Shown here in pieces: positions 8,987 to 60,756 of a stretch of DNA of 64,000 nt; position 1 is the first letter of the stretch; every line of letters starts with the position of its first letter. The notes under the pieces are model-generated. The model did not search any database. It had not been told where the DNA came from and was given only the letters and a program-made list of their open reading frames with translations. The translations under genes were made by a program, and so were the position numbers. The stretch is from Selenomonas sp. F0473 (GTDB taxonomy: Bacteria > Bacillota > Negativicutes > Selenomonadales > Selenomonadaceae), in the NCBI RefSeq assembly GCF_000315545.1, contig NZ_JH992902.1, positions 1,260,470 to 1,324,469 on the forward strand. Reading direction: 5' to 3'.

Positions 8987-9074
8987 CGTGACGTGCGATC
9001 TTGGCGTCTAGCGTCGTTATTCGTCGAATACTGCGCTCTGCATCCAAACTTCCACGTCACTCAGATTGCTGCGG
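8987..9074 (+). repeat. Dispersed 3'-end palindromic repeat, copy A (shortened)
   Basis: It begins 5 bases after the stop of the AICAR transformylase gene with GTGACGTGCGATCTTGGCG and ends with CATCCAAACTTCCACGTCAC, the two terminal arms of the family. About 45-50 bases of the centre present in copies E and F are missing. A solitary left arm (GACGCGGGATTTTCGCGC) follows at 9078-9095. Orientation relative to the upstream gene is the same as in the other copies. Confidence 0.75.
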
Positions 9075-9178
9075 TACGACGCGGGATTTTCGCGCAGTAC
9101 GCGCCGCCGCCGTCCGCACCGCGCGGCGCCAAGCATATGCCCTTATATCTATTTAACCAAAAAGAAAATGATTCCCAC

Positions 9179-9207
9179 TTGTATTTGAACCGACGCCTCC
9201 GTATAAT
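9179..9207 (+). promoter_or_regulatory. Promoter of the methyltransferase gene
   Basis: TTGTAT (9179-9184) and TATAAT (9202-9207) have a 17-base spacer, about 45 bases before the start codon. Confidence 0.6.
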
Positions 9208-9251
9208 AGGCTGTAAATAGTCAGCGGCATAAAAAGAAACCGGAGGTTCCA

Positions 9252-10052
9252 ATGAAGATCAAGCTGGAGGGCGTCGCGGAGACGCTGCTCACGACGCTCT
9301 ATGTGCGCGCGAAGGATGCGGACAGCCCGCACTCGGTGCTGCACGATACAAAGTCGGCGGAGATCGTGGCGATGCTCGATTACGACTTCGCGCAGTTCAA
9401 GCATGCGTGGGCGTCCTACTACGGCGTGCTCGCGCGGGCCAAGACCATCGACGCGGAGATTCGAAAGTTCCTCGCCGCACATCCCGAGAGCGTCGTCGTC
9501 TCGGTCGGCAGCGGCCTCGACACGCGGTTCTCCCGCGTCGACGACGGGCGCGTCCTGTGGTACGACCTCGACTTCCCCGAGGTCATCGCGTGGCGCAGAC
9601 AGCTCTTTGAGGAGAATCCGCGCGTGCGCTGCATCGCGAAATCGGCGCTCGACCCCACATGGCCGCAGGATGTCGAGACAGGCGGCCGCCCGCTCCTCAT
9701 CGTCTCCGAGGGCGTCCTCATGTACCTCGAGGAGAGCGACGTGCAGCGCTTTCTCCGCATCCTCACCGACGGGTTCGCGGACTTCACGGCATATTTTGAC
9801 CTCATCTCCACCTATACGCAGAAACAGAGCAAACGCCACGACATGATCAAGAACATGAACGCCCCCTTCCGCTGGGGCGTCAAGGACGGCAGCGAGGTCG
9901 TCCGTCTTGAGCCGCGTATGCGCCAAATCGGCCTCATCAACTTTACCGACGAGATGCGCCGCCTCCTGCCCGGCTGGAAAAAACTCTTCATCCCCATCTT
10001 CTACCTCGTCAACAACCGTCTGGGGATGTATACCTATACGCGCGCGGAATAA
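9252..10052 (+). CDS. Class I SAM-dependent methyltransferase, LCMT/TcmP (PPM1) family
   Basis: A 266-residue protein of the leucine carboxyl methyltransferase-like family. SAM motif I is VVSVGSGLDTRFSRV (about residues 84-98), motif II ends in WYDLDFPEVI, and the post-motif LLIVSEGVLMYLEESDVQRFL (about 149-169) is diagnostic. Bacterial members methylate carboxyl or hydroxyl groups of small molecules; the substrate cannot be read from sequence. GGAGGTTCC precedes the ATG, and the gene has its own promoter and a bidirectional terminator shared with bioA, so it is monocistronic. Confidence 0.85.
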   Translation: MKIKLEGVAETLLTTLYVRAKDADSPHSVLHDTKSAEIVAMLDYDFAQFKHAWASYYGVLARAKTIDAEIRKFLAAHPESVVVSVGSGLDTRFSRVDDGRVLWYDLDFPEVIAWRRQLFEENPRVRCIAKSALDPTWPQDVETGGRPLLIVSEGVLMYLEESDVQRFLRILTDGFADFTAYFDLISTYTQKQSKRHDMIKNMNAPFRWGVKDGSEVVRLEPRMRQIGLINFTDEMRRLLPGWKKLFIPIFYLVNNRLGMYTYTRAE

Positions 10053-10064
10053 GCGCACAGCACA

Positions 10065-10103
10065 AAGGCACTGCCGCACAAAACGATGCGGCAGCGCCTT
10101 TTC
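10065..10103. terminator. Bidirectional terminator between the methyltransferase gene and bioA
   Basis: Arms AAGGCACTGCCGCA (10065-10078) and TGCGGCAGCGCCTT (10087-10100) form a long stem with one internal mismatch, followed by TTTTCG on the plus strand. It separates two convergent genes. Confidence 0.75.
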
Positions 10104-10133
10104 GTATGGGTGAAAATCAGAGAGACGAGACGG

Positions 10134-11522
10134 CTACGCGCAGAGGCCGCGCTTCACATCCCCGCGTTTCACGCCGCGCGGCAATATCTCCTCGAGCGCC
10201 GCCTTCGCGCGCTCGATCGCGATGCGCAGTTCCTCGCGCGTGATATTAAGCGCGGGGTTGAAGTAGAGCACGTCGCCGAGCGGACGCAGGAGGAGCCCGC
10301 GCCGCAGGGCGCGTTTGTAGATCTCATAGCCCGTGCGTCGCTGCGGGAGCGGCGACTTCGTCTCCCGGTCGGCGACCAGCTCGATCGCGTGGATGAGGCC
10401 AATGTGCCGGATCTCGCCGACGTTCGGATGCGCGCCGAAGGCGTCCTGCATCTCCTCCGTCAGCCACGCCGCCGTCTCGCCCGCCCGCGCGAGGATGTGC
10501 TGCTCGCGCATGACGCGCAGCACCGCGCGCGCCGCCGCACACCCGAGCGGGTTGCCCGCGTAGGTGTGACTGTGCATGAACGCGCGCCCCGCCGCATAGT
10601 CCGCATAGAACGCTTCATAAATATTTTCACGGACGCAGGTAATGGACATCGGCAGATATCCGCCCGTCAGCCCCTTCGAGAGACACATAATGTCGGGCGT
10701 GATGCCCGCATGGTCTGAGGCGAACATCTTGCCCGTGCGCCCGAAGCCCGTTGCGATCTCGTCGCAGATGAGCTTCACATCGTAGGCGTCGCAGAGGGCG
10801 CGCAGTTTTTTGAGATACAGCGGCGGATAGATGCGCATCCCCGCGCAGCCTTGGAGGAGCGGCTCCACGATGATCGCCGCCATCTCGTGCGCATGCGTTT
10901 CAAACGCCCGCTCCGCGTGCGCAAAACATGGGCAGTCGCAGTGCGCGCGTGTTTCGTCGTACGGACAGCGATAGCAGTCGGGCGCCTCGACGTGAATGTT
11001 ATCCATCATCATCGGTTGATACATCCGCGCGAAGAGATCCATGCTCCCGACCGAGAGCGCGCCGATCGTCTCGCCGTGGTACGCCTCCGTCAGGCACATG
11101 AACCGCTGTTTTTCGGGCTTTCCCGTCTGCAAATAGTATTGGAACGACATCTTGAGCGCGCATTCCACCGCCGCCGAACCGTTGTCGTTGAAGTGGAACT
11201 TCGTCAGCCCCGGCGGCACGATCTCCGCCAGCTCCTCGGCAAGGAGGATCGCCCCCTCGTGGGAAAAATTGGCAAAGATGACATGCTCGAGCCGATCGAG
11301 CTGCTCCTTGATCGCTTGATTAATGTCCGGATTGCAGTGTCCGAGGAGATTCGCCCACCACGAGCTCACGATATCGAGATATTGCCTCCCGTAGATGTCA
11401 TGCAGCCATACCCCTTCGCCGCGCTGCACGACAATGGGCGGCAGCTCCTCATAGTCCTTCATTTGCGAGCAGGGATGCCAGATGTGCGCGAGATCCCGCT
11501 CTTCCATAGCGCGTGCTTTCAT
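10134..11522 (-). CDS. bioA: Adenosylmethionine-8-amino-7-oxononanoate aminotransferase
   Basis: The 462-residue class III aminotransferase converts KAPA to DAPA using SAM as amino donor, the penultimate part of biotin synthesis. Diagnostic pieces are the N-terminal IWHPCSQMKDYEELPPIVV, SSWWANLLGHCNP, YHGETIGALSVGSMDLF, the PLP-binding LICDEIATGFGRTGKMFASDHAGITPDIMCLSKGLTGGY (PLP Lys in LSKGLTGG) and HSHTYAGNPLGCAAA. It is the last gene of bioY-bioD-bioA, 13 bases after bioD, and is controlled by the BirA-type operator upstream of bioY. Length is typical. Confidence 0.95.
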   Translation of the reverse strand: MKARAMEERDLAHIWHPCSQMKDYEELPPIVVQRGEGVWLHDIYGRQYLDIVSSWWANLLGHCNPDINQAIKEQLDRLEHVIFANFSHEGAILLAEELAEIVPPGLTKFHFNDNGSAAVECALKMSFQYYLQTGKPEKQRFMCLTEAYHGETIGALSVGSMDLFARMYQPMMMDNIHVEAPDCYRCPYDETRAHCDCPCFAHAERAFETHAHEMAAIIVEPLLQGCAGMRIYPPLYLKKLRALCDAYDVKLICDEIATGFGRTGKMFASDHAGITPDIMCLSKGLTGGYLPMSITCVRENIYEAFYADYAAGRAFMHSHTYAGNPLGCAAARAVLRVMREQHILARAGETAAWLTEEMQDAFGAHPNVGEIRHIGLIHAIELVADRETKSPLPQRRTGYEIYKRALRRGLLLRPLGDVLYFNPALNITREELRIAIERAKAALEEILPRGVKRGDVKRGLCA

Positions 11523-11535
11523 TGCTCTCCTCTTT

Positions 11536-12222
11536 TCAGTGATACAGCGCCGCGAGCTGCGCCGCGTCGATATCGAGTTCCTCTGCGTTCGACGCGACCG
11601 CCGCGATGACGGGGACGCCCGTCATCTCCTCGATCATGCGGCGGTTGTCCTCCTCCATCGCGTCACCCGCGTGATAGTTGTTGAGGATCACGCCGCGCAC
11701 GGGGATGTCGCGCCGCTCTAAATGCTCGACGGTCAGCGCCGCCGCGTTGATCGTACCGAGCCCCGCATCCGCGACCACGAGCGTGCCGAGCCCAAGCATT
11801 TTGATGAGATCGTCCAAAATCATTTTTTGCGCCGCGTCCCAACGCAGCGGGCAGATGATGCCGCCGCTGCCCTCCATCGTCAGCAGCTCATAGTAGTCCT
11901 TTGCCCGCGCAAAATCTCTGCGCACGCGGTCCGGATCGATCGGATCGTCATTCCACCGCGCCGCCAGATGCGGCGACACCGCCTCCCGGTAGACATAGGA
12001 CACTGCGGGCGGCCCCCCCGGCGGAATCCCCGCCGCGCGCTGCACATGCAGCACATCCCCCGGCAGGAGCGCCCCGTTCGTATCCGGCACCGCCCCCGAG
12101 AGCGCCGCCTTATAATAGCCCGCCCGATGCCCCGCCGCGCGGAGCTTCTGCACGATGAGGCCCGTCACATAGGTCTTGCCGACATCCGTGCCCGTCCCCG
12201 TCACAAAAAGCGCTTTTCCCAT
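11536..12222 (-). CDS. bioD: Dethiobiotin synthetase
   Basis: This 228-residue P-loop enzyme closes the ureido ring of DAPA with CO2 and ATP. The Walker A variant GTGTDVGKTYV at the N-terminus, followed by YYKAALSG, and the EGSGGIICPL block with the catalytic/metal acid are characteristic. It starts 3 bases after bioY ends, indicating translational coupling, and is followed by bioA. Confidence 0.93.
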   Translation of the reverse strand: MGKALFVTGTGTDVGKTYVTGLIVQKLRAAGHRAGYYKAALSGAVPDTNGALLPGDVLHVQRAAGIPPGGPPAVSYVYREAVSPHLAARWNDDPIDPDRVRRDFARAKDYYELLTMEGSGGIICPLRWDAAQKMILDDLIKMLGLGTLVVADAGLGTINAAALTVEHLERRDIPVRGVILNNYHAGDAMEEDNRRMIEEMTGVPVIAAVASNAEELDIDAAQLAALYH

Positions 12223-12225
12223 CGA

Positions 12226-12810
12226 TTACACATCCTTTACCGGGAGACGGACCGCCGGCTCCGTCTGCCACGCCCCTGCGCGGCGGAACCGCACGGCGAG
12301 CCACGCCGCCGCGCCGCAGATGAGGAGATCGGGCGGCGTCTGGAGAATGCCGCAATAGAGGATCGCCGTCCAGAGCGCGATCGGCGCCTCGAGCAGATAG
12401 TTCGACGCGAGATAAAACCAGCTGATGCCGATCCCGTAGACGATCGCCATGCCGCCGAGATTCACGAGCAACAGGCGCCGAAATCCCGGCTCCGCCGTCA
12501 TGCGCGCCCAGCGTCCGCAGAAATACGCCTGCACGATGAAGCCGAGCAGATAGCCGAACGTCGGCTGTAAGAGATACGAGGGCCCGCCGCCCATCGCAAA
12601 GACCGGCACGCCCACGAGCCCGAGCAGCACATAGGTGCCGACCGCGAGCGCCCCGCGCCGCGGACCGAGCACGAGGCCTGCGAGCAACGTAAACAGGAAC
12701 TGCAGCGTATAGACATCCGTCCCGACCGGAATGCGGATCCACGACCCCACCGTAATGAGCGCGATGAAAATCCCACAGCGCGCCAATTCTCGAATCTCCA
12801 AATATTTCAC
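12226..12810 (-). CDS. bioY: Biotin transporter BioY (ECF S component)
   Basis: A 194-residue membrane protein with about six hydrophobic segments and the BioY hallmarks TLQFLFTLLAGLVLGPRRG and GGGPSYLLQPTFGYLLGF. It is the substrate-binding unit of an energy-coupling-factor biotin importer; the ECF A and T components are not in this window. Translation probably starts at the GTG at 12810, which lies 9 bases after AAAGGAGG. As first gene of bioYDA it joins uptake and synthesis in one unit under biotin control. Confidence 0.92.
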   Translation of the reverse strand: MKYLEIRELARCGIFIALITVGSWIRIPVGTDVYTLQFLFTLLAGLVLGPRRGALAVGTYVLLGLVGVPVFAMGGGPSYLLQPTFGYLLGFIVQAYFCGRWARMTAEPGFRRLLLVNLGGMAIVYGIGISWFYLASNYLLEAPIALWTAILYCGILQTPPDLLICGAAAWLAVRFRRAGAWQTEPAVRLPVKDV

Positions 12811-12840
12811 AGAAACATGCCTCCTTTATTCGTTCTGTTT

Positions 12841-12895
12841 ATGATAACTCTAAATATGTTTTATTGTCAACAATATTTTAAATATTAGTTTACAA
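12841..12895 (-). promoter_or_regulatory. bioYDA promoter overlapped by a BirA-type operator
   Basis: The imperfect palindrome TTGTCAAC (12864-12871) - 16 bases - GTTTACAA (12888-12895) fits the known BirA box spacing (TTGTTAAC-N16-GTTAACAA type). On the minus strand the promoter reads TTGACA (plus TGTCAA, 12865-12870), 18 bases, TATCAT (plus ATGATA, 12841-12846), so the -35 lies inside one operator half. Biotinyl-AMP-bound BirA would block RNA polymerase. Confidence 0.65.
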
Positions 12896-12953
12896 AAATA
12901 TTTCCTGTTCTATACCATCCAAAGACGCGTATCTATCGACACTTTACCGCATC

Positions 12954-12996
12954 AAAAAAGACCGCCGTACCTCCGATATTGGTACGACGGTCTCTT
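12954..12996 (-). terminator. Terminator of the chemotaxis receptor gene
   Basis: GACCGCCGTACC (12960-12971) pairs with GGTACGACGGTC (12981-12992) with one mismatch. On the minus strand it is followed by TTTTTT (plus-strand A-run 12954-12959). Confidence 0.8.
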
Positions 12997-13018
12997 TTGA
13001 TGCGCGTCTATGTCCCGC

Positions 13019-27170: not shown

Positions 27171-27644
27171 TTACTTGCTACCCATAAATGGGTCTCTCGG
27201 GTCAAATAAACTCAACTGATCAGATTCCCTGTCTCGTTTCAGTTGACCTTCGATGTATTCTGTTATCGCCTTCGTGTTTTTCCCTACCGTATCCACATAG
27301 TAACCTTTACACCAAAACTCCCGGTTCCTATATGCAAATTTCATATTCCCAAACTTCTGGAATATCATTAAGCTGCTCTTGCCTTTTAGATACCCCATAA
27401 ACCCCGATACACTCATTTTCGGTGGGATACTTATCAGTATGTGGATATGATCTGGACACACCTCTCCTTCGATTATTTCTACACCTTTCCACTGGCATAA
27501 CGTCCGCAATATCTCTCGTATTGCCATCCGCTTCTCTGCATAAAACACTTTCCTACGATATTTCGGTGCAAATACTATGTGGTACTTACAATTCCACTTC
27601 GTATGTGCTAAACTATTTGTGTCTGCATTTTGTCGTTTTGACAT
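27171..27644 (-). CDS. tnpA: IS200/IS605-family transposase TnpA
   Basis: A 157-residue Y1 HUH transposase. The start KWNCKYHIVFAPKYRRKVFY, the metal-binding HUH motif in CPDHIHILISIPPK (about residues 63-76) and the catalytic Tyr in CKGYYVDTVG (about residues 112-121) are intact, and length is normal, so it is probably active. It nicks and joins single-stranded ends. Translation appears to be limited by a 5' hairpin (27655-27713) that covers the GGGAGG ribosome site. The ORF is more AT-rich than the flanks. Confidence 0.93.
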   Translation of the reverse strand: MSKRQNADTNSLAHTKWNCKYHIVFAPKYRRKVFYAEKRMAIREILRTLCQWKGVEIIEGEVCPDHIHILISIPPKMSVSGFMGYLKGKSSLMIFQKFGNMKFAYRNREFWCKGYYVDTVGKNTKAITEYIEGQLKRDRESDQLSLFDPRDPFMGSK

Positions 27645-30193: not shown

Positions 30194-30240
30194 ATGGGTT
30201 GGAATGGCGCCGCTATGCGCCAAAATCCCGCTCCAAGTTG

Positions 30241-30373
30241 AACCGTAAGTGGCGCGGAAGTTTGGATGCAGCGCAAGGAACGAGAAAAATCCAAGGGAGT
30301 CGTAGTGGGCCGCCTACGTCGACCATAGGATTTTTCAAAGTGACACAGCGATGCGCCAAGATCACGTTTCACG
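30241..30373 (-). repeat. Dispersed 3'-end palindromic repeat, copy B (after hypE)
   Basis: Read leftward it starts 1-2 bases after the hypE stop codon with GCGTGAAACGTGATCTTGGCG. It contains the inner arms GAAAAATCC (30283-30291) and GGATTTTTC (30328-30336) and ends with CCAAACTTCCGCGCCACTTA. A loose right-arm-like fragment (GCTATGCGCCAAAATCCCGC) lies next to it at about 30213-30232. Confidence 0.85.
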
Positions 30374-30374
30374 C

Positions 30375-31382
30375 CTAACAGATGCGGGGGACAAGCTCCC
30401 CCGCCGGCATATCCACAACGCGAATCCCCCCCAGCGGCGTCCGCATTCCGACCGCCCCCGGTGCGTCCTCGGTCGTCTCACCGATGACGACCGCCTCTTT
30501 GCCGTATACATTCTCGTGCATGACGTCGAGGACGCGTGCGGTATCCTCGGGCGGAACGAAGGCGAGGAGTTTGCCTTCGTTGGCAAGCGTCAGGGGATCG
30601 AAGCCGAGCAGTTCGCAGACGCCCTGCACCTCGGGACGCACGGGAATCCGTTCCTCGTCGAGGAGAATCCCGACGCCCGCCGCGCCCGCGATTTCGTTGA
30701 GCGCCGCCGCCGCGCCGCCGCGCGTGGGATCGCGCAGAACGGCGATGCCGGGCGCCGCCGTCAGCATTGCTTCCGCCATTCGGCAGAGCGGCGCGCAGTC
30801 GCTGGTGATGCCGGACGGGAGCGTCAGATTGTGCCGCGCCGCCATAACGGTGGCGGCATGGTCGCCGAGCGTCCCGGAGACGATAACATCCATCCCGGGG
30901 CACACGTTCGTCGGCGCAATATCTGCTCCCTCGACGAGCTGCCCCACGCCCGCCGTATTGATGTAGATGCCGTCGCCCGCCCCGCGCGGCACGACCTTCG
31001 TATCGCCCGTCACAATACGGACGTCCGCCTCCTCCGCCGCCGCGCGGATGTCCTCCACAACGCGGCCCAGCGTCTCAAGCGGAAGGCCTTCTTCAAGAAT
31101 CAGCGCGAGCGAGAGATACGCCGCCCGCGCGCCCGTCATGGCGAGGTCGTTTACCGTACCGCAGACGGCGAGCCGACCGATGCTCCCGCCCGGGAAGAAA
31201 TGCGGCTGCACGACGTAGGAATCCGTGGTAAACGCGATTTTTCCCTCTGCCGGCAGCACGACCCCGTCGTGCAGTCCGTTCAGCAGCGCATTGCCGAGCG
31301 CGGGGAGAATAATTTCCTCCGTCAGCGTGCGCGAGAGCCGTCCGCCCGCACCGTGCGCGAGCGTAATCACATCATGCGCCAT
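30375..31382 (-). CDS. hypE: Hydrogenase maturation protein HypE
   Basis: The 335-residue AIR-synthase-like protein dehydrates the carbamoyl group delivered by HypF to a thiocyanate on its C-terminal Cys, the source of the CN ligands. It begins ITLAHGAGG, contains GDTKVVPRGAGDGIYI and RDPTRGGAAAALNEIA, and ends PRIC with the required terminal Cys. The ATG at 31382 overlaps the end of hypD by 11 bases; the long upstream extension of the ORF is spurious. Last gene of hypC-hypD-hypE; a dispersed repeat starts straight after its stop. Confidence 0.95.
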   Translation of the reverse strand: MAHDVITLAHGAGGRLSRTLTEEIILPALGNALLNGLHDGVVLPAEGKIAFTTDSYVVQPHFFPGGSIGRLAVCGTVNDLAMTGARAAYLSLALILEEGLPLETLGRVVEDIRAAAEEADVRIVTGDTKVVPRGAGDGIYINTAGVGQLVEGADIAPTNVCPGMDVIVSGTLGDHAATVMAARHNLTLPSGITSDCAPLCRMAEAMLTAAPGIAVLRDPTRGGAAAALNEIAGAAGVGILLDEERIPVRPEVQGVCELLGFDPLTLANEGKLLAFVPPEDTARVLDVMHENVYGKEAVVIGETTEDAPGAVGMRTPLGGIRVVDMPAGELVPRIC

Positions 31383-32726: not shown

Positions 32727-32756
32727 GGTATATATTTTCCCCTTCCCTTGCTGTTG

Positions 32757-32778
32757 TGACGCGGCATTTTCGCACTAC
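32757..32778 (+). repeat. Solitary end fragment of the dispersed repeat
   Basis: TGTGACGCGGCATTTTCGC matches the left arm of the family (GTGACGCGGGATTTTCGCGC) at all but one or two positions, with no right half. It lies between hypC and the divergent coiled-coil gene and is inverted relative to copy C on the other side of that gene. Confidence 0.5.
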
Positions 32779-32808
32779 GCATCCGAAGCGCCGCGTCGCC
32801 GATATGAT

Positions 32809-33700: not shown

Positions 33701-33829
33701 GCGTGATGCGGAAGTTTGGAGGCAGAGCAGGGAACAAGAAAAATACAAGCGAAGGCGTAGTTAAGAGCTGCGTTGAGCGCAGTATTTTTCGCAGTGACAC
33801 AGCTATGCGCCAAAATCCCGCATCACGCC
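33701..33829 (-). repeat. Dispersed 3'-end palindromic repeat, copy C (includes the end of hypF)
   Basis: The ends GCGTGATGCGG (33701-33711) and CCGCATCACGC (33818-33828) are perfect complements; inner arms GAAAAATAC (33738-33746) and GTATTTTTC (33782-33790) form a second perfect stem. The hypF stop codon (33803-33805) lies inside the repeat. Confidence 0.9.
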
Positions 33830-36190
33830 TATGGCGGCTTGTCCGTACGCAATCCCCCCGTCGTTCGGCGGTACGGTATGCGGCAGTAGGACGCGATACG
33901 CGCCCCTAATCTGCTCTAACAGCAGCTCGAGCAGCAGCGCATTTTGAAATACGCCGCCCGAGAGGGCAACGGTGCGGAGACCTGTCACGCGTGCGAGGCG
34001 GTCGAATATATCGCGTGTCGCGGCGGCGAGCGTCACATGGAAGTCGAGCGCCCGTCCCGCGCGTTCCTCTGCCGAAAGGCCCTCCGCCCCGTCCATCACC
34101 GCATGGAGCACGGGCAGAAAGTCAATTGTTATCGGCGCGCCGGTTTCCCCGGCACGCATATCGCCGCCGGGCAGCGCATCCCGCGCCCCGCCCCCATCCC
34201 CCCCGCGCACGGTATACGGGAGCACCCGCCCCCGCCGCCGCGCCCGGCGCGCCGCATGTTCGAGCTCGATTGCCGCCTGCCCCTCATACGCGTTCACATA
34301 GGAGACGCCGAGGAGCGCCGCCGCCGTATCAAAGAGCCGCCCGACGCTCGAGGTGAGCGGCGCACCCACGCCCGCCGCTGTCGCCTGCATGAGGAGGCGC
34401 CATCCGGGCGGGATCTGTGCGGCGAACGCGGGACACCGCGCCGCAAGCGCATCTCCATGCACGCCGTAAAGCACCCAAAGAGCCATGCGCCACGGCTCCT
34501 CCGCCGCCTTATCCCCGCCCGGCAGGGGCAGGTATGCAAAATGCGCACGTCGCTCATAGCCCGAGAGGTCGGCGACAAGGAACTCCCCGCCCCACGCGCA
34601 GCCGTCGTCACCGTACCCCGTGCCGTCAAACGCCGCGCCGAGCACGCGCTCCATGCAGCCGTGTTCGGCGAGCACCGCCGCGATATGCGCGTGATGATGC
34701 TGCACCTTGACGAGCGGAAGCCCCTCCGCCGCCGCGCGCGCCGCGAGGTACTGCCCCGACAGATACGCGGGATGCAGGTCGGCGGCGAGGAGCCGCGGCC
34801 GGACGTCGAACAGCCGCTCATAATGCGCGATCGTCCCCTCGTAGGACGCGCGCACCTTCGCATTCGTGAGGTCGCCGATGTGCTCGCTGAGAAACGCTTC
34901 GCGCCCGCGCGCGAGACAAAAGGTATTCTTTAACTCCGCCCCACCCGCGAGCACTGTGATATCGCTCTCAAAAGGAAGCGTTACGGGCGTCGGCGCGAAT
35001 CCGCGGCTCCGGCGCAGGATCATGCGCCCGCCCGGCGCCATCCGCACGACCGAGTCGTCCACGCGGTGCGCGATGACGCGGTTGTGTGCGAGTATCGCGT
35101 CGGCAATCACCCGGAGCTCCCGCTCCGCCGCCGCATCCTCATGGAGAATCGGTTCGCCGCTCATGTTCGCGCTCGTCATGACCCAGAGGTCGCCCGGCGC
35201 GAGCAGGAGGAGATGGACGGGCGCGTAGGGCAGCAGGACGCCGAGGTATGCGTTGCCGGGCGCGACGGCGGGTGCCGCGGCATCCGCCGCATCCTCTCGG
35301 CGGCGCAGGAGGACAATCGGCGCGACGGGCGAGGTGAGCCACCGTTCCTCATCCGCCGACACGACGCAAAGCCCGCGTACGGTCTCGATGCTCCCCGCCA
35401 TCACGGCGAGCGCCTTTCTCTCCCGATGTTTGCGCGCGCGCAGGCGCGTGACCGCCGCGTCGTTCCGGGCATCGCAGGCGAGATGATAGCCGCCGATGCC
35501 CTTGACGGCGACGATGCCGCCCGCCGCGATGATCCGCCGCGCCTCGGCGATGGGATCGCCCGCAAACGCCCCCGCCCCCGTCAGCAGACGGTACGCCGGG
35601 CCGCAGTCCACGCATGCATTCGGCTGCGCGTGGAACCTGCGGTCGGCGGGATCGTCATACTCCCTTTGGCACGCGCCACACATGCGGAACGCCGCCATCG
35701 TCGTCAGCGGACGGTCATACGGCACGCCGCGGATGATGGTGTAGCGGGGGCCGCAGTTCGTGCAGTTCGTGAACGCGTACCCGTACCGTCTGTCCCGCGC
35801 GTCCATGACCTCGCGCCGGCAGTCCGCGCAGACGGCGAGATCGGGGGAGACGAGCGTGCGCGGCGCATCCCCCGCGGGGCTGGGCAGGATACGAAACGCA
35901 TCCTCCCCCACGGGCGGCATCTCCCGGGCCGTCACTTCCGTCACGGAGGCAGCAAGCGGCGCTTCTGCGCGGAGCGCAGCGGCAAATGCATCGAGCGCCG
36001 CCGCGTTCCCCTCCGCCTCGATGCCGACGCCTGCGCTGTCGTTCAGCACAAAACCGCCGAGCCCATAGCGGGCGGCAAGCCGATAGACAAAAGGGCGAAA
36101 CCCCACCCCCTGCACGATCCCGGAGACACGAAAGGCGCGCCGCACTGCGGCGCACCCATTGATATCCGCCGCCGCCCTGCGCGCCGTCAC
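33803..36190 (-). CDS. hypF: Carbamoyltransferase HypF
   Basis: The 795-residue multidomain enzyme transfers carbamoyl from carbamoyl phosphate to the HypE Cys. Domains in order: acylphosphatase (RVSGIVQGVGFRPFVYRLA, about residues 20-38), two zinc-finger blocks (CADCRREVMD ... CTNCGPRYTI; CGACQREYDD ... CVDCGPAY), a YrdC-like ATP domain (GGIVAVKGIGGYHLACDA), and a Kae1/carbamoyltransferase domain (VQHHHAHIAAVLAEH; AFDGTGYGDDG; LSGGVFQN). It starts with a GTG overlapping the protease stop (GTGA). The last eight residues (GVMRDFGA) and stop are encoded by repeat copy C, so its original C-terminus may have been replaced. Confidence 0.96.
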   Translation of the reverse strand: MTARRAAADINGCAAVRRAFRVSGIVQGVGFRPFVYRLAARYGLGGFVLNDSAGVGIEAEGNAAALDAFAAALRAEAPLAASVTEVTAREMPPVGEDAFRILPSPAGDAPRTLVSPDLAVCADCRREVMDARDRRYGYAFTNCTNCGPRYTIIRGVPYDRPLTTMAAFRMCGACQREYDDPADRRFHAQPNACVDCGPAYRLLTGAGAFAGDPIAEARRIIAAGGIVAVKGIGGYHLACDARNDAAVTRLRARKHRERKALAVMAGSIETVRGLCVVSADEERWLTSPVAPIVLLRRREDAADAAAPAVAPGNAYLGVLLPYAPVHLLLLAPGDLWVMTSANMSGEPILHEDAAAERELRVIADAILAHNRVIAHRVDDSVVRMAPGGRMILRRSRGFAPTPVTLPFESDITVLAGGAELKNTFCLARGREAFLSEHIGDLTNAKVRASYEGTIAHYERLFDVRPRLLAADLHPAYLSGQYLAARAAAEGLPLVKVQHHHAHIAAVLAEHGCMERVLGAAFDGTGYGDDGCAWGGEFLVADLSGYERRAHFAYLPLPGGDKAAEEPWRMALWVLYGVHGDALAARCPAFAAQIPPGWRLLMQATAAGVGAPLTSSVGRLFDTAAALLGVSYVNAYEGQAAIELEHAARRARRRGRVLPYTVRGGDGGGARDALPGGDMRAGETGAPITIDFLPVLHAVMDGAEGLSAEERAGRALDFHVTLAAATRDIFDRLARVTGLRTVALSGGVFQNALLLELLLEQIRGAYRVLLPHTVPPNDGGIAYGQAAIGVMRDFGA

Positions 36191-41831: not shown

Positions 41832-42272
41832 TTTTTTCATCACATACCCTGTCCGATAAAAGCGATACCGCACAAAGTGTCCGCCAATGATTCTCCCTCC
41901 GCTATGGACGCGGAAAAGGGGAACCGTCTCCCGTACCCATGTACGACAAACAGTCCACCCTGCGCGGCCGCACGGTTGCTCAGTCCATGCCGCCGTTCGA
42001 AAATACAGGTCTCGCCTGCGGCAGCGGTGTATTCGTCGTTTCCTTTTCGATCATGGGAAGGCATGGCATTTCTACGCATACCCGCGCGGATGCGGATCAG
42101 TCCGCAGCGCAAACGCGGTATCGCAGGCGCGGAGCGCTTGGATATGTTTGCTCGGAAACGCGGAACAATAGCGATTCTCTATAGTTCCATATTTTATTTA
42201 ATAGTATCTTCATACTATCAGGATTCCATACCGCTGTCAATAAGTCTCGGCAATGCTAATGAAAAATTTTAT
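41832..42272. other. Intergenic region, 441 bp, upstream of the hydrogenase operon
   Basis: It separates the 345-aa secreted protein gene (stop at 42273) from the hydrogenase regulatory palindrome. I find no ORF with a ribosome site and no clear terminator. The right third is AT-rich. Confidence 0.4.
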
Positions 42273-48097: not shown

Positions 48098-48230
48098 AGT
48101 CTAAGCGACACGGAAGTTTCGATGCGTGGCGAGGAATGACGAGAACGCGAGGGAAGGTGTAGTTAAAAGCCTACGTCGACCGAAGCGTTTGACGACATGA
48201 CGATGCCGGGCGCGAAAATCCCGCGTCACG
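48098..48230 (-). repeat. Dispersed 3'-end palindromic repeat, copy D (after dnaB)
   Basis: Read leftward it begins 2 bases after the dnaB stop with ACGTGACGCGGGATTTTCGCG and ends with CGAAACTTCCGTGTCGCTTA. The centre is more diverged than in copies B, E and F (GAGAACGCG instead of GAAAAATCC), but GTAGTTAAAAGCCTACGTCG is kept. Confidence 0.85.
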
Positions 48231-48231: not shown

Positions 48232-49554
48232 TTATGGTTCGCGGGCAAGGTCGCGGAACCTGGTATACTCCTTTTGGAAATACAGCTTGACCGTATCGGT
48301 CGCGCCGTTGCGGTGTTTGGCGATACTGAGCTCCGTAATGTTCGCGTTCTCCGTGTCCTGATTGTAGTAATCCTCACGATAGAGGAACATGACGATATCG
48401 GCGTCCTGCTCGATGGACCCGGACTCGCGCAGATCGGAGAGCATCGGCCGCTTGTCCGAACGGCCTTCGGTCGCACGCGAAAGCTGCGAAAGGACGACGA
48501 TCGGCACGCTGAGCTCACGGGCAAGTATCTTCAGCGAGCGCGTCATCTCCGCCACGGCAAGTGTGCGGTTCTCCACACGCCCCGGCGCCTGGATCAGCTG
48601 GAGGTAGTCTATCGCGATAAGATCGAGTCCGTGCTCCGCCTTGAGGCGCCGCGCACGCGAGCGAATATCCGTGACCGTCGTGCTGCTCGTATCGTCGAAG
48701 TAGAGTTTGGTCTTCATGATGCGGTCGGCCACCTTCACGAGGCGCTCCCACTCCGCATCATCGAGCTCGCCGCGCGCAAGATGCGTCGCGTCAATCTGTC
48801 CCTCCGCGCAGAAAATACGATGCATGAGCTGCTCCCGCGGCATCTCGAGGGAGAAGAAGGCCACCGTTTTCCCCTCCAGCGCCGCATGTGCGGCAACATT
48901 TAGGACAAACGCCGTCTTGCCCATGGCCGGACGCGCCGCCACGATGATGAGGTCCGATTTCTGGAGGCCCCGGGTCACGCTGTCGAGGCGCGCAAGGCCC
49001 GTAGAAAGGCCCGTAATCCCGCCCTTTGACTTGGACAGTTCATTCAGACGGTCTACGGCGTCAAAGACGACACGCTTCGCAGGAATGAACGACGCCGTCG
49101 TCTGCCCGCCCGCAATCGCGAGGATCTTACGTTCCGCCTCACTCAGTTGTACGGCAATCTCATCGCCGGCCTCATAAGCCGCGCCCGCAATCTCCGTACT
49201 CACATCGATAAGACTGCGGAGGATCGCTTTTTCCTTGACGATCTTCGCATAATGTTCTAGATTCGCCGTGCTTGGCACGGCGTTCGTGAGGTTCGCAAGG
49301 AAGGAAATTCCGCCGACCTGTTCGAGGAGGCCGGATTTCCTCAGAGCCTCTGTTACCGTAACGATATCTACGGGTTCTCCCGCGCGAACAAGCCCCTCCA
49401 TCGCGTCAAAGGCGGCGCGATGCGCCTGACGATAGAAGTCCTCGGCACGCAGGAGTTCGAGGGCCTGCGTTGCGGCGCTGGGCTTCAGCATCATCGCGCC
49501 GAGCACAGACAGTTCCGCCTCAATATTCTGCGGCGGTATACGGCCTTCCGGCAT
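48232..49554 (-). CDS. dnaB: Replicative DNA helicase DnaB
   Basis: The 440-residue hexameric helicase: N-terminal domain (PPQNIEAELSVLGAMML), RecA-like core with Walker A AARPAMGKTAFVLNVA (about residues 209-224), Walker B LIAIDYLQLI, VVLSQLSRATEGRSDKRP and RESGSIEQDADIVMFLYRED. Length and motifs are complete. It lies 36 bases downstream of the lon-type gene in the leftward rplI-lon-dnaB cluster. A dispersed repeat begins right after its stop. Confidence 0.97.
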   Translation of the reverse strand: MPEGRIPPQNIEAELSVLGAMMLKPSAATQALELLRAEDFYRQAHRAAFDAMEGLVRAGEPVDIVTVTEALRKSGLLEQVGGISFLANLTNAVPSTANLEHYAKIVKEKAILRSLIDVSTEIAGAAYEAGDEIAVQLSEAERKILAIAGGQTTASFIPAKRVVFDAVDRLNELSKSKGGITGLSTGLARLDSVTRGLQKSDLIIVAARPAMGKTAFVLNVAAHAALEGKTVAFFSLEMPREQLMHRIFCAEGQIDATHLARGELDDAEWERLVKVADRIMKTKLYFDDTSSTTVTDIRSRARRLKAEHGLDLIAIDYLQLIQAPGRVENRTLAVAEMTRSLKILARELSVPIVVLSQLSRATEGRSDKRPMLSDLRESGSIEQDADIVMFLYREDYYNQDTENANITELSIAKHRNGATDTVKLYFQKEYTRFRDLAREP

Positions 49555-55438: not shown

Positions 55439-55493
55439 CCCGTATCCTTTCGGCGGCCCCGCCGCCCGCTGTCCCCGTTAAACACGCTTCCTT

Positions 55494-55628: not shown

Positions 55629-57446
55629 TTACGGCTCGCTATGCGTCGGCGCGGCGCGCAAGCGCCCCTCGTCGATGATCCCCGCCATGCGCAGCAAATA
55701 CTGTGCGTTCGTCGTCCTACACCGCCCCTCGCGTATCTTGAAATCAAAGAGAATCTTATCTCCCTCGTAATGCTCCTCAAAGTGCGCGTTTGCGATGGGA
55801 ATTCCCTCGCGGCCAAGATCGCACAGCTCGAAGTCGTGCGTCGTCACAATCGTGATCGCATGCGGCAGCGTCAGATACCGGATCGCCTCGCGCGCACCGA
55901 CGATACGGTCGGCGGAGTTCGTCCCGCGGAAGATTTCGTCAATCAGGATGAGCATCGGCCGCCCCTTGCGGCTGTACGCCATCATTTTCTTGATACGCAG
56001 GAGCTCCGCATAGAACGTCGAAATCCCGCCCGCGAGATCGTCGTGAATCTGTATCGACGTGTAGACCGCCATCGGCGTCAGCGCAAACGACCGCGCGCAC
56101 ACAGGCGCGCCGGCGTATGCAAGCACCGTATTGGAGCCCAGCACGCGCATATACGTTGTCTTTCCGGACATATTCGATCCCGTGATCACGAGCGTGCCCG
56201 CCGTGAGGTTCGCGTCATTCGGCGTCCCCGCCTCCTCCGTCAGCACCAGCGGCATCGCGCCCTCGGCCGTGAGACGCGGCGCGGGCTCGTCGAGGAACCG
56301 CGGGAACGTATAAACCTCGCGCGTATGCCCGATCATCGCGAGCGAAAGCAGCAGCTCCATCTCCGCCCAAACGTCGAGCCAGGCGCCCGCCGCCGCGCCC
56401 GCCCGCCGGCGCCAGAGCGCAAAATACGCGCGGCAGTGGAAATCCCAAAGGAAGAGCGCATTTGCGAGGATAAAGAACACGAAGTTCCGCCGCATCGCCA
56501 CACAGTCCGCGAGGCGTGTCAAGCGGCCCTGCGCCCGCGTCGCACGCAGGGGGACAAAGAGCGGCGCAAGGATCCCGCGCAGAGCGTCGCCGCGCAGGGG
56601 GGCGCGCTCGAGCGCACGAAAGATATTCCCGTAGAGCCGCAGTTCCTGCGCCATGCGGCCGAGCGGCGCGAGCACGCGCTGCGTCCGCGGATAAACCGCG
56701 AGCGCAAGCGCCGTATTGACGGACCATATCGCGAGCGCCGGCGCCCATGAGCCGCCGCCAAAGGCCGCCCATAGGAACGATCCCAGCCCCGCAAGCGAAA
56801 AGAGCGTCCCCGCCGTGAAGTAGAGACGCGGCGAGATCGCCGGCGGCTCCGCCAGCTCCCGCACGAGATCTCTCGTATCGTGTCCGTCCGGCAGACGCGC
56901 CCCGCGCGCCGCCAGCTCGAGGCAGAGCAGGGGATGGGAGAGCAGCTCCCGCACCGCCGCTTGGCGCCGCTTCGTCTTGAGGAGATCCCGCGGCGCCGCC
57001 GAAAGCGCCCGTGCGAGGCGATCGCGCCCCGCCTTTGTCCGCGCGCAGCAAAGATACTGATAGAGCGACGCCGTGCCGAAGATATGCAGATCGCGATCGG
57101 GCGGGCGCTTTTCCTTGCGGTACTGCGCGCCCGTCACAGGCTCATTTTTCCAATCGCCCGTGAACCGCGCGAGATAGGCCGCCACGACGCCGAGATACGC
57201 CCGCATGAACCGCCTGTGCCGTTCGAGCCGCGCATGCCGGACCACAAGAATCGCAAAGAGGATCAGCAAAAACAGTCCGAGCAGCATCTCGCCGGGCAGC
57301 CGGCGGTCATAGCCGTGGATCAGCAGCGCCGCCATCAGCGGGAACACAAGCGAGCGTGCGAGCACCAGCCGGCGGTTCTGTCTGCGCAGCGCATTGATGA
57401 GCGCGAGCGTGTTCTCCCATGTATTTTCGTAGAATGTTTTCTTCAA
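55629..57446 (-). CDS. Membrane-anchored MutS-like ATPase
   Basis: The 605-residue protein has hydrophobic segments near the N-terminus (LVFPLMAALLIHGY; MLLGLFLLILFAILVV) and in the middle (YFTAGTLFSLAGLGSFLWAA; NFVFFILANALFLW), a MutS domain III-like helical region and a C-terminal MutS ATPase: Walker A VITGSNMSGKTTYMRVLGSN, Walker B MLILIDEIFRGTNSADR and TIVTTHDFELCDL. The mismatch-recognition domain I is missing, so it is a MutS-related protein of unknown role, not repair MutS. The TTG at 57446 is preferred (AAGGAG upstream); an in-frame ATG at 57464 has no ribosome site and lies close to the predicted transcript start. Confidence 0.85.
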   Translation of the reverse strand: MKKTFYENTWENTLALINALRRQNRRLVLARSLVFPLMAALLIHGYDRRLPGEMLLGLFLLILFAILVVRHARLERHRRFMRAYLGVVAAYLARFTGDWKNEPVTGAQYRKEKRPPDRDLHIFGTASLYQYLCCARTKAGRDRLARALSAAPRDLLKTKRRQAAVRELLSHPLLCLELAARGARLPDGHDTRDLVRELAEPPAISPRLYFTAGTLFSLAGLGSFLWAAFGGGSWAPALAIWSVNTALALAVYPRTQRVLAPLGRMAQELRLYGNIFRALERAPLRGDALRGILAPLFVPLRATRAQGRLTRLADCVAMRRNFVFFILANALFLWDFHCRAYFALWRRRAGAAAGAWLDVWAEMELLLSLAMIGHTREVYTFPRFLDEPAPRLTAEGAMPLVLTEEAGTPNDANLTAGTLVITGSNMSGKTTYMRVLGSNTVLAYAGAPVCARSFALTPMAVYTSIQIHDDLAGGISTFYAELLRIKKMMAYSRKGRPMLILIDEIFRGTNSADRIVGAREAIRYLTLPHAITIVTTHDFELCDLGREGIPIANAHFEEHYEGDKILFDFKIREGRCRTTNAQYLLRMAGIIDEGRLRAAPTHSEP

Positions 57447-57479
57447 AAGACACTCCTTCTCCATCTGTCGTTTGATTTT

Positions 57480-57530
57480 ATTATAGCACAGCGCCTCTGT
57501 GTGGACAATTTCTCTCCGAACTGGTAGAAT
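57480..57530. promoter_or_regulatory. Overlapping divergent promoters
   Basis: Plus strand: TGGACA (57502-57507), 17 bases, TAGAAT (57525-57530). Minus strand: TTGTCC (plus GGACAA, 57503-57508), 17 bases, TATAAT (plus ATTATA, 57480-57485). The two -35 elements are the same DNA, so only one side can be used at a time. Confidence 0.6.
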
Positions 57531-57578
57531 ATGGACACTTCGGTCAACGAATGTCAAGGAAAGGCGGATCGGATCGCT

Positions 57579-57776
57579 ATGAGAGATACGGCAGAGGCCG
57601 CCGCGCGCCTTAAAGCCGCCGTGCGGAGCCTTGACCTGCGCATGCGCGCCGCGGCGGGCGACCTCGACTACGAATCCTATCTGCACAAAAAGCGCGCCCT
57701 CGAAGCCGCGCTCTTCGCCCTCAGCCGGGGGCGCGCGGCGGATGAAAAGGTTGACCCCGGCACAATTTCATCCTGA
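57579..57776 (+). CDS. Unknown helical small protein, 65 aa
   Basis: Not recognised. MRDTAEAAARLKAAVRSLDL continues as an Ala/Arg-rich helix with LDYESYLHKKRALEAALFAL. The in-frame ATG at 57531 is inside or before the predicted transcript start (about 57537), so the ATG at 57579 is used. It precedes a 91-aa gene. Confidence 0.4.
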   Translation: MRDTAEAAARLKAAVRSLDLRMRAAAGDLDYESYLHKKRALEAALFALSRGRAADEKVDPGTISS

Positions 57777-57828
57777 TTTCAGGCCTGTATGATAGATTGA
57801 ATTTCATTAAGATGAAAGGAAAATTACT

Positions 57829-58104
57829 ATGTCACAGCGTATGACAATGGAAGAAGTTCTGAAGGAATACGGCGTCCCGCAGATCCGTCTCGACGTACAC
57901 GCGACGCGCAGCGATCTGCTGAAACTCCGCGAGAAACTCATGGCGATCCGCGACCTCTCCGACGGGCGCGAGCAGGGCTATCTCGACATCGACTGCAAGC
58001 TCTACATCGACGTCGACGACATCGACCGTTACCTCTCGGGAGAACTCGATACCGTGGGGGAGATCTATGCGTTTCCCGAGGATATCAAATCTTTTAGAGA
58101 GTGA
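57829..58104 (+). CDS. Unknown acidic protein, 91 aa
   Basis: Not recognised. AAAGGAAAA precedes the ATG. The sequence starts MSQRMTMEEVLKEYGVPQIR, looks alpha/beta, and is rich in Asp in the centre (DIDCKLYIDVDDIDRYLSG), ending EDIKSFRE. No export signal. The TGA stop lies inside the first bases of repeat copy E. Confidence 0.6.
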   Translation: MSQRMTMEEVLKEYGVPQIRLDVHATRSDLLKLREKLMAIRDLSDGREQGYLDIDCKLYIDVDDIDRYLSGELDTVGEIYAFPEDIKSFRE

Positions 58105-58231
58105 TGCGGGATTTTCGCGCCTAGCGTCGTCACTGTGAAAAATACCGCGGTCAACGTGGCGCTGCCACGCCTCCCTTGTATTTCCTCGTTCCTTGCTATG
58201 CATCAAAACTTCCGCGTCACTTATGTTACGG
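58101..58231 (+). repeat. Dispersed 3'-end palindromic repeat, copy E
   Basis: It begins GTGATGCGGGATTTTCGCGC at the stop codon of the 91-aa gene (TGA at 58102-58104 is part of the repeat). It has inner arms GTGAAAAATAC and GTATTTCCTC and ends CATCAAAACTTCCGCGTCAC plus TTATGTTACGG. A further 240 bases up to 58472 hold no recognisable gene. Confidence 0.9.
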
Positions 58232-58472
58232 CAGCAAGGCGAAGGGCATGTTGATACGTCCGTGAATCGCCTCCCCGCGGGGGCGGCGTGCGCCGACACG
58301 TTCTGCAAAAAGGACGTGCCGCCCAGCCGCGGAACCGCCCGGCGCATGATTTTCCGCCGGGTGGTGCGGCGCCCTGTCCATAGAGCACATATGCATCGCG
58401 CACGCCGTTTGCGATAAGTGGCGTAAAACATGCCCTGAGCCCCCCACAACATAAAATCAAAGGAGAACATAA

Positions 58473-59156
58473 ATGAACTTCAAGAAACTCTTCGCCGCCG
58501 CAATCATCGCCTCCTTCGCCTTCGGTGCGGCGCCGACCATCGCCCCCGACCTCACCGCGGGCATATTCATTTCAGAGGCGGAGGCTGCACGCGGCGGCGC
58601 GCGCATGTCGCCGCGGCGCGCCGCGCCTGCGGCGCCGAAATCCGCCCCCGCGCAGAGCGGCGGCGGCAAGTCCGTCTCCGGCAACGGGGCCGGCTATGCG
58701 CCCTCAAAGAGCGCCGACCGGCTCGATAAGAACGCGCCGAACGCCGCCTCCGCCAAACCGGGCGCAGCGGCAGGCGCGGCCAATCCCGGGCGCGGCGCCA
58801 CCGGCTGGGGCAACGCCCTCCGCAGCATCGGGTTCCTCGCGGGCGGCATGCTCCTCGGTTCCATGCTCGCCTCCATGTTCGGCCTCGGCAGCGGTTTCCT
58901 CGCAGACCTCCTCGGCGTATTTGCGAACATCGCGCTGCTCTTTGTCGCCCTCACGGTCGTCCGCTGGATATGGAACCGTTTCCGCGGACGCAAGGAAGAG
59001 GAGAACGTTTACCGCAGCGCCGCGCGTCCGCAGCAGGCCGCGCCCCGCGCGCCGATCGCCGATATCCGTCCACCCGGAGCCTCGGCCCCGATGCCGACAC
59101 GTGCCGATGCGGACGACAGCCCCCGGGCCGTCGCCGACCGCTATCGGAACCGGTGA
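58473..59156 (+). CDS. Tim44-like/low-complexity exported membrane protein
   Basis: 227 residues: signal peptide (KKLFAAAIIASFAFGAAPTI, cleavage near AEAARG), an Ala/Pro/Gly/Ser-rich region to about residue 110, a Gly-rich hydrophobic pair (LAGGMLLGSMLASMFGLGSG; FLADLLGVFANIALLFVALTVV) ending VRWIWNRFRGRKE, and a disordered tail. The Gly-rich helix pair followed by VRWIW resembles Tim44-domain proteins of bacteria. Function unknown. It precedes the PNPOx-like gene by 70 bases. Confidence 0.6.
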   Translation: MNFKKLFAAAIIASFAFGAAPTIAPDLTAGIFISEAEAARGGARMSPRRAAPAAPKSAPAQSGGGKSVSGNGAGYAPSKSADRLDKNAPNAASAKPGAAAGAANPGRGATGWGNALRSIGFLAGGMLLGSMLASMFGLGSGFLADLLGVFANIALLFVALTVVRWIWNRFRGRKEEENVYRSAARPQQAAPRAPIADIRPPGASAPMPTRADADDSPRAVADRYRNR

Positions 59157-59226
59157 CCCCCTGCCTCGGCAGCGCCGCTCCGCGGGCGCGGCTTGATCCG
59201 GATCGCCGTATCAAAGGAGTTCTTTT

Positions 59227-59601
59227 ATGCTTCCCGACAAATTCTTCGACTGCCTGAAATACGAGGGCGTCGTCGCCATCGGCACAGCCTCCGCGCAAGG
59301 GGAGGCGCATATCGCGAACACGTGGAACAGCTATCTCATCGTCACGGAGGAGGAGCGGATCCTCATCCCCGCGGCAGGCATGCATAAGACGGAACGGAAC
59401 AGCAACGAGAACCCGCACGTTGAAATCACGCTCGGCACACGCGAGGTCGAGGGACACCGCGGCCCCGGCACGGGATTCCTGCTTACGGGAACCGCAGCGT
59501 TCCTCAAAGAAGGCGCCTTATTCGACCGGATGAAGGAAAAATGCCCCTTCGCCGCCCGCGTACTCGTTTTCACTCCGGAGCGCTGCCGCCAAACATTATA
59601 A
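59227..59601 (+). CDS. Pyridoxamine 5'-phosphate oxidase-like flavoprotein
   Basis: A 124-residue split-barrel protein binding FMN or a related flavin: LKYEGVVAIGTASAQGEAHI forms the first strands, NTWNSYLIVTEEERILIPA the next, GMHKTERNSNENPHVEITLG the phosphate-binding turn. It is too short for PdxH, so it belongs to the broad PNPOx-like group; the substrate is not known. AAAGGAGTT is the ribosome site. A terminator follows. Confidence 0.75.
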   Translation: MLPDKFFDCLKYEGVVAIGTASAQGEAHIANTWNSYLIVTEEERILIPAAGMHKTERNSNENPHVEITLGTREVEGHRGPGTGFLLTGTAAFLKEGALFDRMKEKCPFAARVLVFTPERCRQTL

Positions 59602-59626
59602 CCGCATAGAATCATCGGTAAAACAT

Positions 59627-59668
59627 GACCGCCGTACGAAGATCGTTCGTCCGGCGGTCTTATATTTT
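59627..59668 (+). terminator. Terminator of the PNPOx-like gene
   Basis: GACCGCCGTACGAA (59627-59640) pairs with TTCGTCCGGCGGTC (59646-59659), followed by TTATATTTTTC. Confidence 0.8.
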
Positions 59669-59951
59669 TCTCGTCCGCCTGAAAATATCCCTCCCGTAAA
59701 TAAATAAAAAATAATTCTATAAAATACCTATAAATAAATATAAATTACAATAAATACTTCTGAAATTCCATACGTCCTCCTTCCGGTTTATGCCGCAGCG
59801 TACGCCGAGACACCGGTTTCAACGCGGCGCAGGATATGATGAAAGGGAGAGGGGCGGCGGCGTTCGGCAACATAAGCGAAACGTTCGCCTCGCGTCACCG
59901 ATTCTTCCCTTGAAAAAGGAATCATAATCGTTCATAATGGAAGGAAACAAC
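59669..59951. other. Intergenic region, 283 bp, AT-rich in its first half
   Basis: It has runs such as AAATAAATAAAAAATAATTC and no ORF with a ribosome site. The second half is GC-rich and may carry the promoter of the SIS-domain gene, which I cannot place with confidence. Confidence 0.35.
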
Positions 59952-59972
59952 ATGTCACAAAGGAGCGATACC

Positions 59973-60641
59973 ATGGCCAAAGAATCTGCCTATGCCGCCG
60001 TCGATACGCTGACTGCGCGCTATCCCGCGCTCGAAGTATGTGCCGCGGATGTCCGCGCCGCGATTACGGCGCTCTGCGATTGTTATCACGGCGGAGGCAA
60101 ACTCATCGTCTGCGGCAACGGCGGTTCCGCATCGGATGCGGAGCACATCGTCGGCGAACTGATGAAGGGCTTCCTCCTGCCGCGCCATCTCGACGAGGCG
60201 ATGCTCGACAAGCTGCACGCGGCATGCGACGCGAAGGATCCGCGTGCGGTCGATTACTTCATGCAGAACTTACAGGGAGCGCTGCCCGCGGTCTCGCTGC
60301 CCTCGCAGCTCGCGATCAGCACGGCGTTCTCGAACGATCAAGCGCCCGATCTGACGTTTGCCCAGCAGGTGCTCGGCCTCGGGAAACCGGAGGACGTCCT
60401 GCTCGGCATCACGACCTCGGGCAACTCGAAGAACGTCATCTACGCGTTCGAGATCGCACGGGCACTCGGCCTCACGACGATCGCCCTCACGGGCACCCCC
60501 GGCGGACGCGTCGCGGCGGACGGTCTCGCGGATATCGTGATCAAGGCGCCCGCGAGCGAGACGTATGTCATTCAGGAGTATCATCTGCCGATCTATCATG
60601 CGCTCTGCATCGCAGCCGAAACGGAGTTCTTTGGTGTGTGA
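59973..60641 (+). CDS. SIS-domain phosphosugar isomerase (GmhA/DiaA-like)
   Basis: A 222-residue SIS protein: KLIVCGNGGSASDAEHIVGELMKGFLLPR (phosphosugar-binding Ser), NDQAPDLTFAQQV, LLGITTSGNSKNVIYAFEIAR, TIALTGTPGGRVA and the C-terminal VIQEYHLPIYHALC typical of sedoheptulose-7-phosphate isomerases. The GmhA product feeds heptose of LPS, fitting a diderm, but a sugar isomerase of other specificity is possible. AAGGAG lies 8 bases before the ATG at 59973; the ATG at 59952 with GGAAGG is the alternative. The TGA stop lies in repeat copy F. Confidence 0.85.
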   Translation: MAKESAYAAVDTLTARYPALEVCAADVRAAITALCDCYHGGGKLIVCGNGGSASDAEHIVGELMKGFLLPRHLDEAMLDKLHAACDAKDPRAVDYFMQNLQGALPAVSLPSQLAISTAFSNDQAPDLTFAQQVLGLGKPEDVLLGITTSGNSKNVIYAFEIARALGLTTIALTGTPGGRVAADGLADIVIKAPASETYVIQEYHLPIYHALCIAAETEFFGV

Positions 60642-60756
60642 TGCGCGATATTTGCGCCTCGCTGTGTCACTGCGAAAAATCCTGCGGTCGACGTAGGGCT
60701 GTCTACGACTCCTTTGGATTTTTCTCGTTCCTTGGCGCATCACTTAGGTTACGGTA
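60636..60756 (+). repeat. Dispersed 3'-end palindromic repeat, copy F
   Basis: It starts GTGTGATGCGCGATATTTGCG at the end of the SIS gene (TGA 60639-60641 included). Inner arms GAAAAATCC (60674-60682) and GGATTTTTC (60716-60724) and a central CGTAG/CTACG stem give a long hairpin. It ends GCGCATCAC plus TTAGGTTACGG. Confidence 0.9.

Follow-up and report, generated by a model that had tools for sequence, protein, structure and literature searches.

A family of hairpin repeats centred on stop codons in Selenomonas sp. F0473 and its relatives among the Negativicutes

Six repeat copies at gene ends in the 64-kb window

The stretch of Selenomonas sp. F0473 DNA analysed here (64,000 nucleotides, hereafter the window) contains six copies of a palindromic repeat, all on the same strand as the gene upstream. 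Four are essentially complete: one on the minus strand behind hypE (30249–30372, 2 nt after the TAG of the gene at 30375–31382), one on the minus strand at hypF (33703–33826, offset −24 from the stop of the gene at 33803–36190), one on the minus strand that interrupts the dnaB stop codon (48105–48229, offset +2, gene at 48232–49554) and one on the plus strand at an 85-aa ORF (58101–58220, offset −4), where the GTGA of the element gives the TGA stop of the ORF at 57847–58104. The two others, both on the plus strand, are a copy without inner arms that starts 5 nt after the stop of a PurH-type formyltransferase gene (8988–9060, gene at 7810–8982) and a copy that has lost its outer 3' end (60638–60743, end approximate, offset −4) and whose GTGA supplies the stop of a phosphoheptose-isomerase-like gene (59973–60641). 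Partial second copies lie downstream of several of the six, such as the partial second 5' arms after the 8988 copy (9076–9095) and near the hypE copy (about 30205–30231), and a short remnant consisting of the 5' arm plus a short palindrome is found at 32756–32800 on the plus strand. Matches to the 5' end (6 in the window vs 0.05 expected) and to the 3' end (7 vs 0.17) were far above chance expectation, which confirms the six-copy family reported in the preliminary description; its start positions were wrong by up to about 8 nt, and the shared ends and inner arms it listed are complete in the four copies named above only. The window also holds a molybdenum/tungsten cofactor riboswitch on the minus strand (42024–42169; RF01055, 38.1 bits). 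The element matched no family at gathering score in an Rfam search of the window.

The element is an imperfect palindrome of ~121 nt, with a tandem unit of ~137 nt that includes the spacer TTAGGTTACGG. It starts with (A)GRC-GTGAYGCGGGATTTT, i.e. (A)GRC-GTGAYGCGG, is usually preceded by AGGC or AGAC and followed by the spacer; the oriented window copies begin GTGAYGCGGGATTTTSGCGC and end CATCSAAACTTCCGCGTCAC.

Most copies across the genome start at stop codons in one orientation

A DNA search gave 44 matches in the 2,065,801-bp genome. A covariance model built from 26 oriented copies (R1) detected about 73 copies in 58 clusters in this 2.07-Mb genome, whose source is closely related to Selenomonas artemidis; in S. 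artemidis DSM 19719 it detected at least 78 copies (55 clusters for position analysis). Among 14 genomes of the genus, R1 found many copies in two, one or two copies in three and none in nine. In the three low-copy congeners, which have no other copies of the family, the copies lie antisense in the 16S–23S spacer, between tRNA-Ala and tRNA-Ile, and family copies likewise lie antisense beside these tRNA genes in the spacer of this genome (loci for this genome and the congeners taken together, L107:14897–15280 and L122–L124 near 6000–6340). Cluster density was higher near dnaA (37/58 within 350 kb vs 19.7 expected, P 3e-6), where conserved core genes may possibly keep old copies.

To describe the position of the copies, genes were called by a home-made codon-usage model on the stretches around them, and the offset was taken from the end of the stop to nucleotide 1 of the element. 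The first base of the element fell within −28 to +6 nt of a same-strand stop in 41 of 58 clusters here and in 37 of 55 in S. artemidis, against a random-placement null in the same stretches of 7.4% (P 2e-33) and 8.7% (P 2e-26), respectively. Upstream neighbours were sense rather than antisense in a ratio of 48:7 here and 48:6 in S. artemidis. The commonest offsets among the 58 clusters were −4 (16), +3 (7), −24 (6) and +2 (5), and those in S. artemidis −4 (14), +3 (7), +2 (6), +4 (4), −24 (4) and +10 (4). Sense copies were found 17 and 18 times at 0 to +6 nt in the two genomes and 4 and 5 times at +7 to +60, most of the latter with remnants of older elements between stop and copy. The exceptions mostly have the same 5' end, in antisense orientation, abutting a tRNA 5' end or the zone immediately before a start codon; a few sit past a terminator or at a greater distance. 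The preliminary description had claimed a single orientation with a fixed end beside the gene, at its stop codon, and had proposed a covariance search with counts of stop distance and orientation; the pattern proved to be genome-wide and far beyond the placement null in two genomes, and neither random orientation nor random position was encountered. Copies agreed with the leading-strand direction of replication in a ratio of 42:15, and 8 of the 15 opposed copies were still stop-adjacent; replication-strand targeting as the sole cause was rejected because these 8 copies still follow the gene.

Comparison with element-free orthologs

Congeners without an element at the site were used as reference for 32 genes, in preference to S. 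artemidis because its 'empty' sites mostly held remnants. The protein ended at the same residue as its element-free orthologs in 22 of the 32 genes (hypE, for example, has the same terminal residue in a relative) and no more than 2 aa apart in 30, with an implied insertion point between −28 and +5 nt of the ancestral stop. Since the orthologs end at or near the same residue, the elements sit at or close to where the ancestral stop lay rather than being scattered through the 3' UTR; orthologs of the same length also rule out that stop adjacency is an artefact of truncation inside genes. In the clearest case, dnaB, the ancestral sequence, beginning with the stop codon, restarts past the array, and the ancestral 3' UTR resumes 73 nt beyond the element; at this site, a deletion reaching the gene is thereby ruled out as the origin of the arrangement. 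Ancestral post-stop sequence downstream of the element was also seen at the phosphoheptose-isomerase-like gene and at L067.

In the +2 class, genes read T|AG-GC where relatives read TGA: insertion split the stop codon, and the element restored it. Genes of the −4 class end at the TGA (element nt 2–4) inside GTGACG, and those of the −24 class at the TAG at element nt 22–24, so that unrelated proteins share an RDFGA-like tail. The reading frame of hypF, for instance, runs 24 nt into the element, stops at the element TAG and gains an RDFGA tail; hypF (window 33803–33826) and nine other −24 genes carry an element-encoded C-terminal tail of the type V[T/M]RDFGA. Over the two genomes together, counts for the −4, −24 and third frames were 30:10:0; no copy used the third frame, in which the protein would gain about 20 residues. 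Selection therefore acts on insertions inside coding sequences.

This frame filter shows selection against long C-terminal tails and, together with the general location of REP families near gene 3' ends (PMC3733652), speaks for a neutral MITE or REP element shaped by purifying selection only, for which gene ends would be the least harmful place. Frame selection leaves the scarcity of copies at +7 to +60 unexplained, however: such an element should be at least as frequent there as at −28 to +6 (observed, 4–5 vs 37–41), which strongly disfavours the neutral explanation, and it should occur in both orientations (observed, 48:6–7). We consider it improbable. All the same, the statement in the preliminary description that a random MITE would not show the bias was too simple, as REP families also lie at gene 3' ends and supply stops (PMC3733652).

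Hairpin structure, transcription and turnover

Every window copy folded into a hairpin (z −1.7 to −5.6), as had been proposed for the sense transcript, except that the 3'-truncated 60638 copy gave two hairpins instead of a single long one. The consensus of 26 copies is one long hairpin, in which 93.9% of cells were paired and double changes occurred at 17 of 27 pairs, the structure having been derived from the same 26-copy alignment, which favours it. None of 500 shuffles reached any of these measures, and the covariation score was 0.306, compared to 0.109 for shuffles and at most 0.106 for slid controls. A strong example of double change is an inner pair that occurs as AU, CG and GC. Part of the covariation comes from subfamilies having traded entire inner hairpins. 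The hairpin thus covaries strongly and has been kept; covariation does not give the reason for its being kept, as mobile DNA hairpins covary too.

No T-tract was found after the 3' arm, which runs into TTAGGTTACGG, and terminator-like sites between the element and the next gene occurred at the control rate (22/41 and 21/37 clusters vs 85/152 control genes). An intrinsic terminator was rejected on these grounds, and with it the termination role that the preliminary description had listed among possible causes; insertion targeted to gene ends, also listed there, fits best. Because the element sits between the stop and the terminator of the gene, where one is present, its transcription is very likely: it is part of the 3' UTR, not a terminator.

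At least 31 sites are common to this genome and S. artemidis, and many are present in one of the two species only, which share ~83% DNA identity. Orthologous copies differ by newer copies inside old ones or by swaps of the whole inner hairpin, in which both inner arms are replaced while outer arms and flanks agree. Nested and tandem copies are present.

Several of these observations bear on the possibility that insertion was broadly random and that copies were kept where the sense hairpin starts within the footprint of the terminating ribosome, as a 3' UTR RNA element that might block 3'–5' exonucleases, be processed by RNase III or act as an intercistronic insulator. The strong compensatory change in the hairpin, the retention of sites in two species at ~83% DNA identity and the fact that copies precede terminators, and are therefore very likely transcribed, are in favour of such a function, although the covariation stems partly from swapping of whole inner hairpins between subfamilies and many sites are not common to both species. 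Nine of the 14 genus genomes have no copy detectable with R1, so no copy is indispensable. ERIC and NEMIS provide precedents for effects on mRNA (PMC2229807), and relatives of the element occur in rRNA and tRNA operons (see below), where hairpins get processed; antisense copies at tRNA, 16S and RBS borders argue against a role of this kind. Functional retention of randomly inserted copies is a serious but tentative alternative.

Relatives in other Negativicutes

R1 yielded weak tandem matches in other genera. A second model (R2) takes in distant sequences found with R1 and, at E ≤ 1e-4, detected relatives in 118 of 381 Negativicutes genomes and 33 of 102 genera, a reach that depends on those sequences being true relatives. 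The shared core TCGACGTA...TACGNCT and the tandem copies support the view that the distant sequences found with R1 are true relatives. In several species of one genus (g3), copies lie directly at the stops of putative carB (before pyrF) and pgk (before tpiA), names that are based on translated ends and gene order and not on a family search. In other genera, copies were found antisense against 16S 5' ends or tRNA 5' ends, or in rRNA spacers. In genus g20 (L191–L195), the element lies antisense directly against the 16S rRNA 5' end in several operons, where it may conceivably have a part in pre-rRNA processing. Given such antisense sites at tRNA and rRNA 5' ends, and a few at gene starts, the stop codon cannot be the sole target.

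In genera g10, g14 and g18, relatives lie inside MITEs with terminal repeats of ~20 nt (~165 nt in total in g18, where many dispersed ends are of one type), and some of these MITE-borne copies are identical at six places. Only part of them abut stops; most do not. Genome G135 (L171–L176) contains ~196 ends TWAGGAAYCACTGAAYAAGTC, many at contig ends, which belong to an IS/MITE system with the hairpin core inside its MITEs. The element likewise has the terminal inverted repeats, lack of coding capacity and dispersed copies of a MITE. The identical dispersed copies in MITEs of relatives, together with the nested and tandem copies and the element-free orthologous sites flanked on either side by ancestral sequence, run counter to a non-mobile, RNA-only element (a terminator or riboregulator) formed in situ and then carried along with its genes, as might be supposed from its conserved structure and its fixed position relative to the gene. 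The insertions refute the strict form of this idea and terminator features are lacking; we regard it as very improbable.

Mobilising agent and comparison with known repeats

No consistent target-site duplication was seen, the right ends running into older remnants. No transposase or IS with the ends of the element, and no end pair at IS distance, was found in this genome, so that a parent IS sharing these ends was rejected for this genome. Seven near-identical IS200-like Y1 transposase genes (~161 aa) are present, one of them in the window (27171–27644, minus strand). An origin from a RAYT appears unlikely because Y1 here is a multi-copy IS200-like element and the ends inspected, those of the window copy only, bear no resemblance to the repeat; a Y1 search of G008, a relative with element copies, gave no match. 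Mobility by a reverse transcriptase (as a retroelement or group II intron derivative) was rejected as well, since an RVT_1 search found no match in this genome or in S. artemidis.

In many cases REP repeats lie <20 bp from ORF 3' ends, and some provide a TAG stop (PMC3733652). Like REP/BIME, the element forms palindromes dispersed chiefly between genes that are co-directional or convergent (PMC3733652), as well as tandem or mosaic arrays; unlike these (20–40 nt, GTAG/CGTC head), it is ~121 nt long, has no GTAG/CGTC head and no linked RAYT that we found, and shows a fixed offset, a single orientation and its own conserved inner sequence. Its length and head, and the fact that no RAYT link was seen, place the family outside the REP definition; that of MITEs it matches only in part. 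Effects on mRNA have been proposed for the transcribed hairpins ERIC, NEMIS and YPAL (PMC2229807). By description, the element resembles enterobacterial YPAL/RU-2 and ERIC, hairpins of 100–170 nt transcribed with upstream genes for which orientation-dependent effects were proposed (PMC2229807), but YPAL duplicates 3–26 bp on insertion whereas no duplication was seen here, and precise stop-codon centring of YPAL/RU-2 or ERIC is not reported in the text consulted (PMC2229807). With NEMIS/Correia and other IS-derived MITEs it shares terminal inverted repeats and a hairpin RNA, and its relatives in other Negativicutes are MITE cores; it differs in having no matching IS in this genome and a far stronger position bias. 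Like Rickettsia palindromic elements, it is a mobile palindrome that adds amino acids, here the RDFGA tail (see also PMC2229807), but those elements lie inside ORFs whereas this one terminates them. No description of the family was found in Rfam or in the open-licence papers searched.

Probable stop-codon-centred insertion or retention

The copies are true insertions, centred on stops, in one orientation and shared between species, and their relatives are dispersed as near-identical MITEs. They are best read as stop-codon-centred insertion or retention of an old REP/MITE-like mobile hairpin. We give a probability of about one half to the reading that the repeats are old, small, non-autonomous mobile hairpins (REP/MITE-like, with no gene inside) whose insertion is centred on the stop codon or gene boundary. 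That insertion itself was aimed at gene ends is about as likely as not, somewhat more so than retention for an RNA role; strict positional retention by selection would yield an identical pattern.

Under stop-centred insertion, copies would enter with the 5' end leading, centred on a gene's stop codon or its boundary, and insertions slightly inside the coding sequence would survive only where the built-in TGA (nt 2–4) or TAG (nt 22–24) stops translation at once. Transcribed as part of the 3' UTR, the sense hairpin might then influence mRNA decay or the processing of mRNA 3' ends. Turnover would proceed by new insertion into or beside the 5' end of old copies, giving tandems and 5' remnants, and by exchange of whole inner hairpins. 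It is conceivable, if rather doubtful, that the element has an insertion machinery able to recognise where genes end or begin, chiefly the stop codon or the terminating ribosome, and so colonises the exact ends of housekeeping genes class-wide without damage.

Bacterial REP and MITE repeats are often found close to gene ends, but it is rarely testable whether they were aimed or kept there; base-resolved positions relative to element-free orthologs, combined with the frame filter, orientation, nesting and class-wide relatives, make targeting and selection separable in principle. The analysis adds a covarying ~120-nt hairpin family that alters 3' UTRs and protein C-termini in many housekeeping genes, and shows that mobile hairpins can accumulate precisely at gene ends, here those of dozens of ordinary genes.
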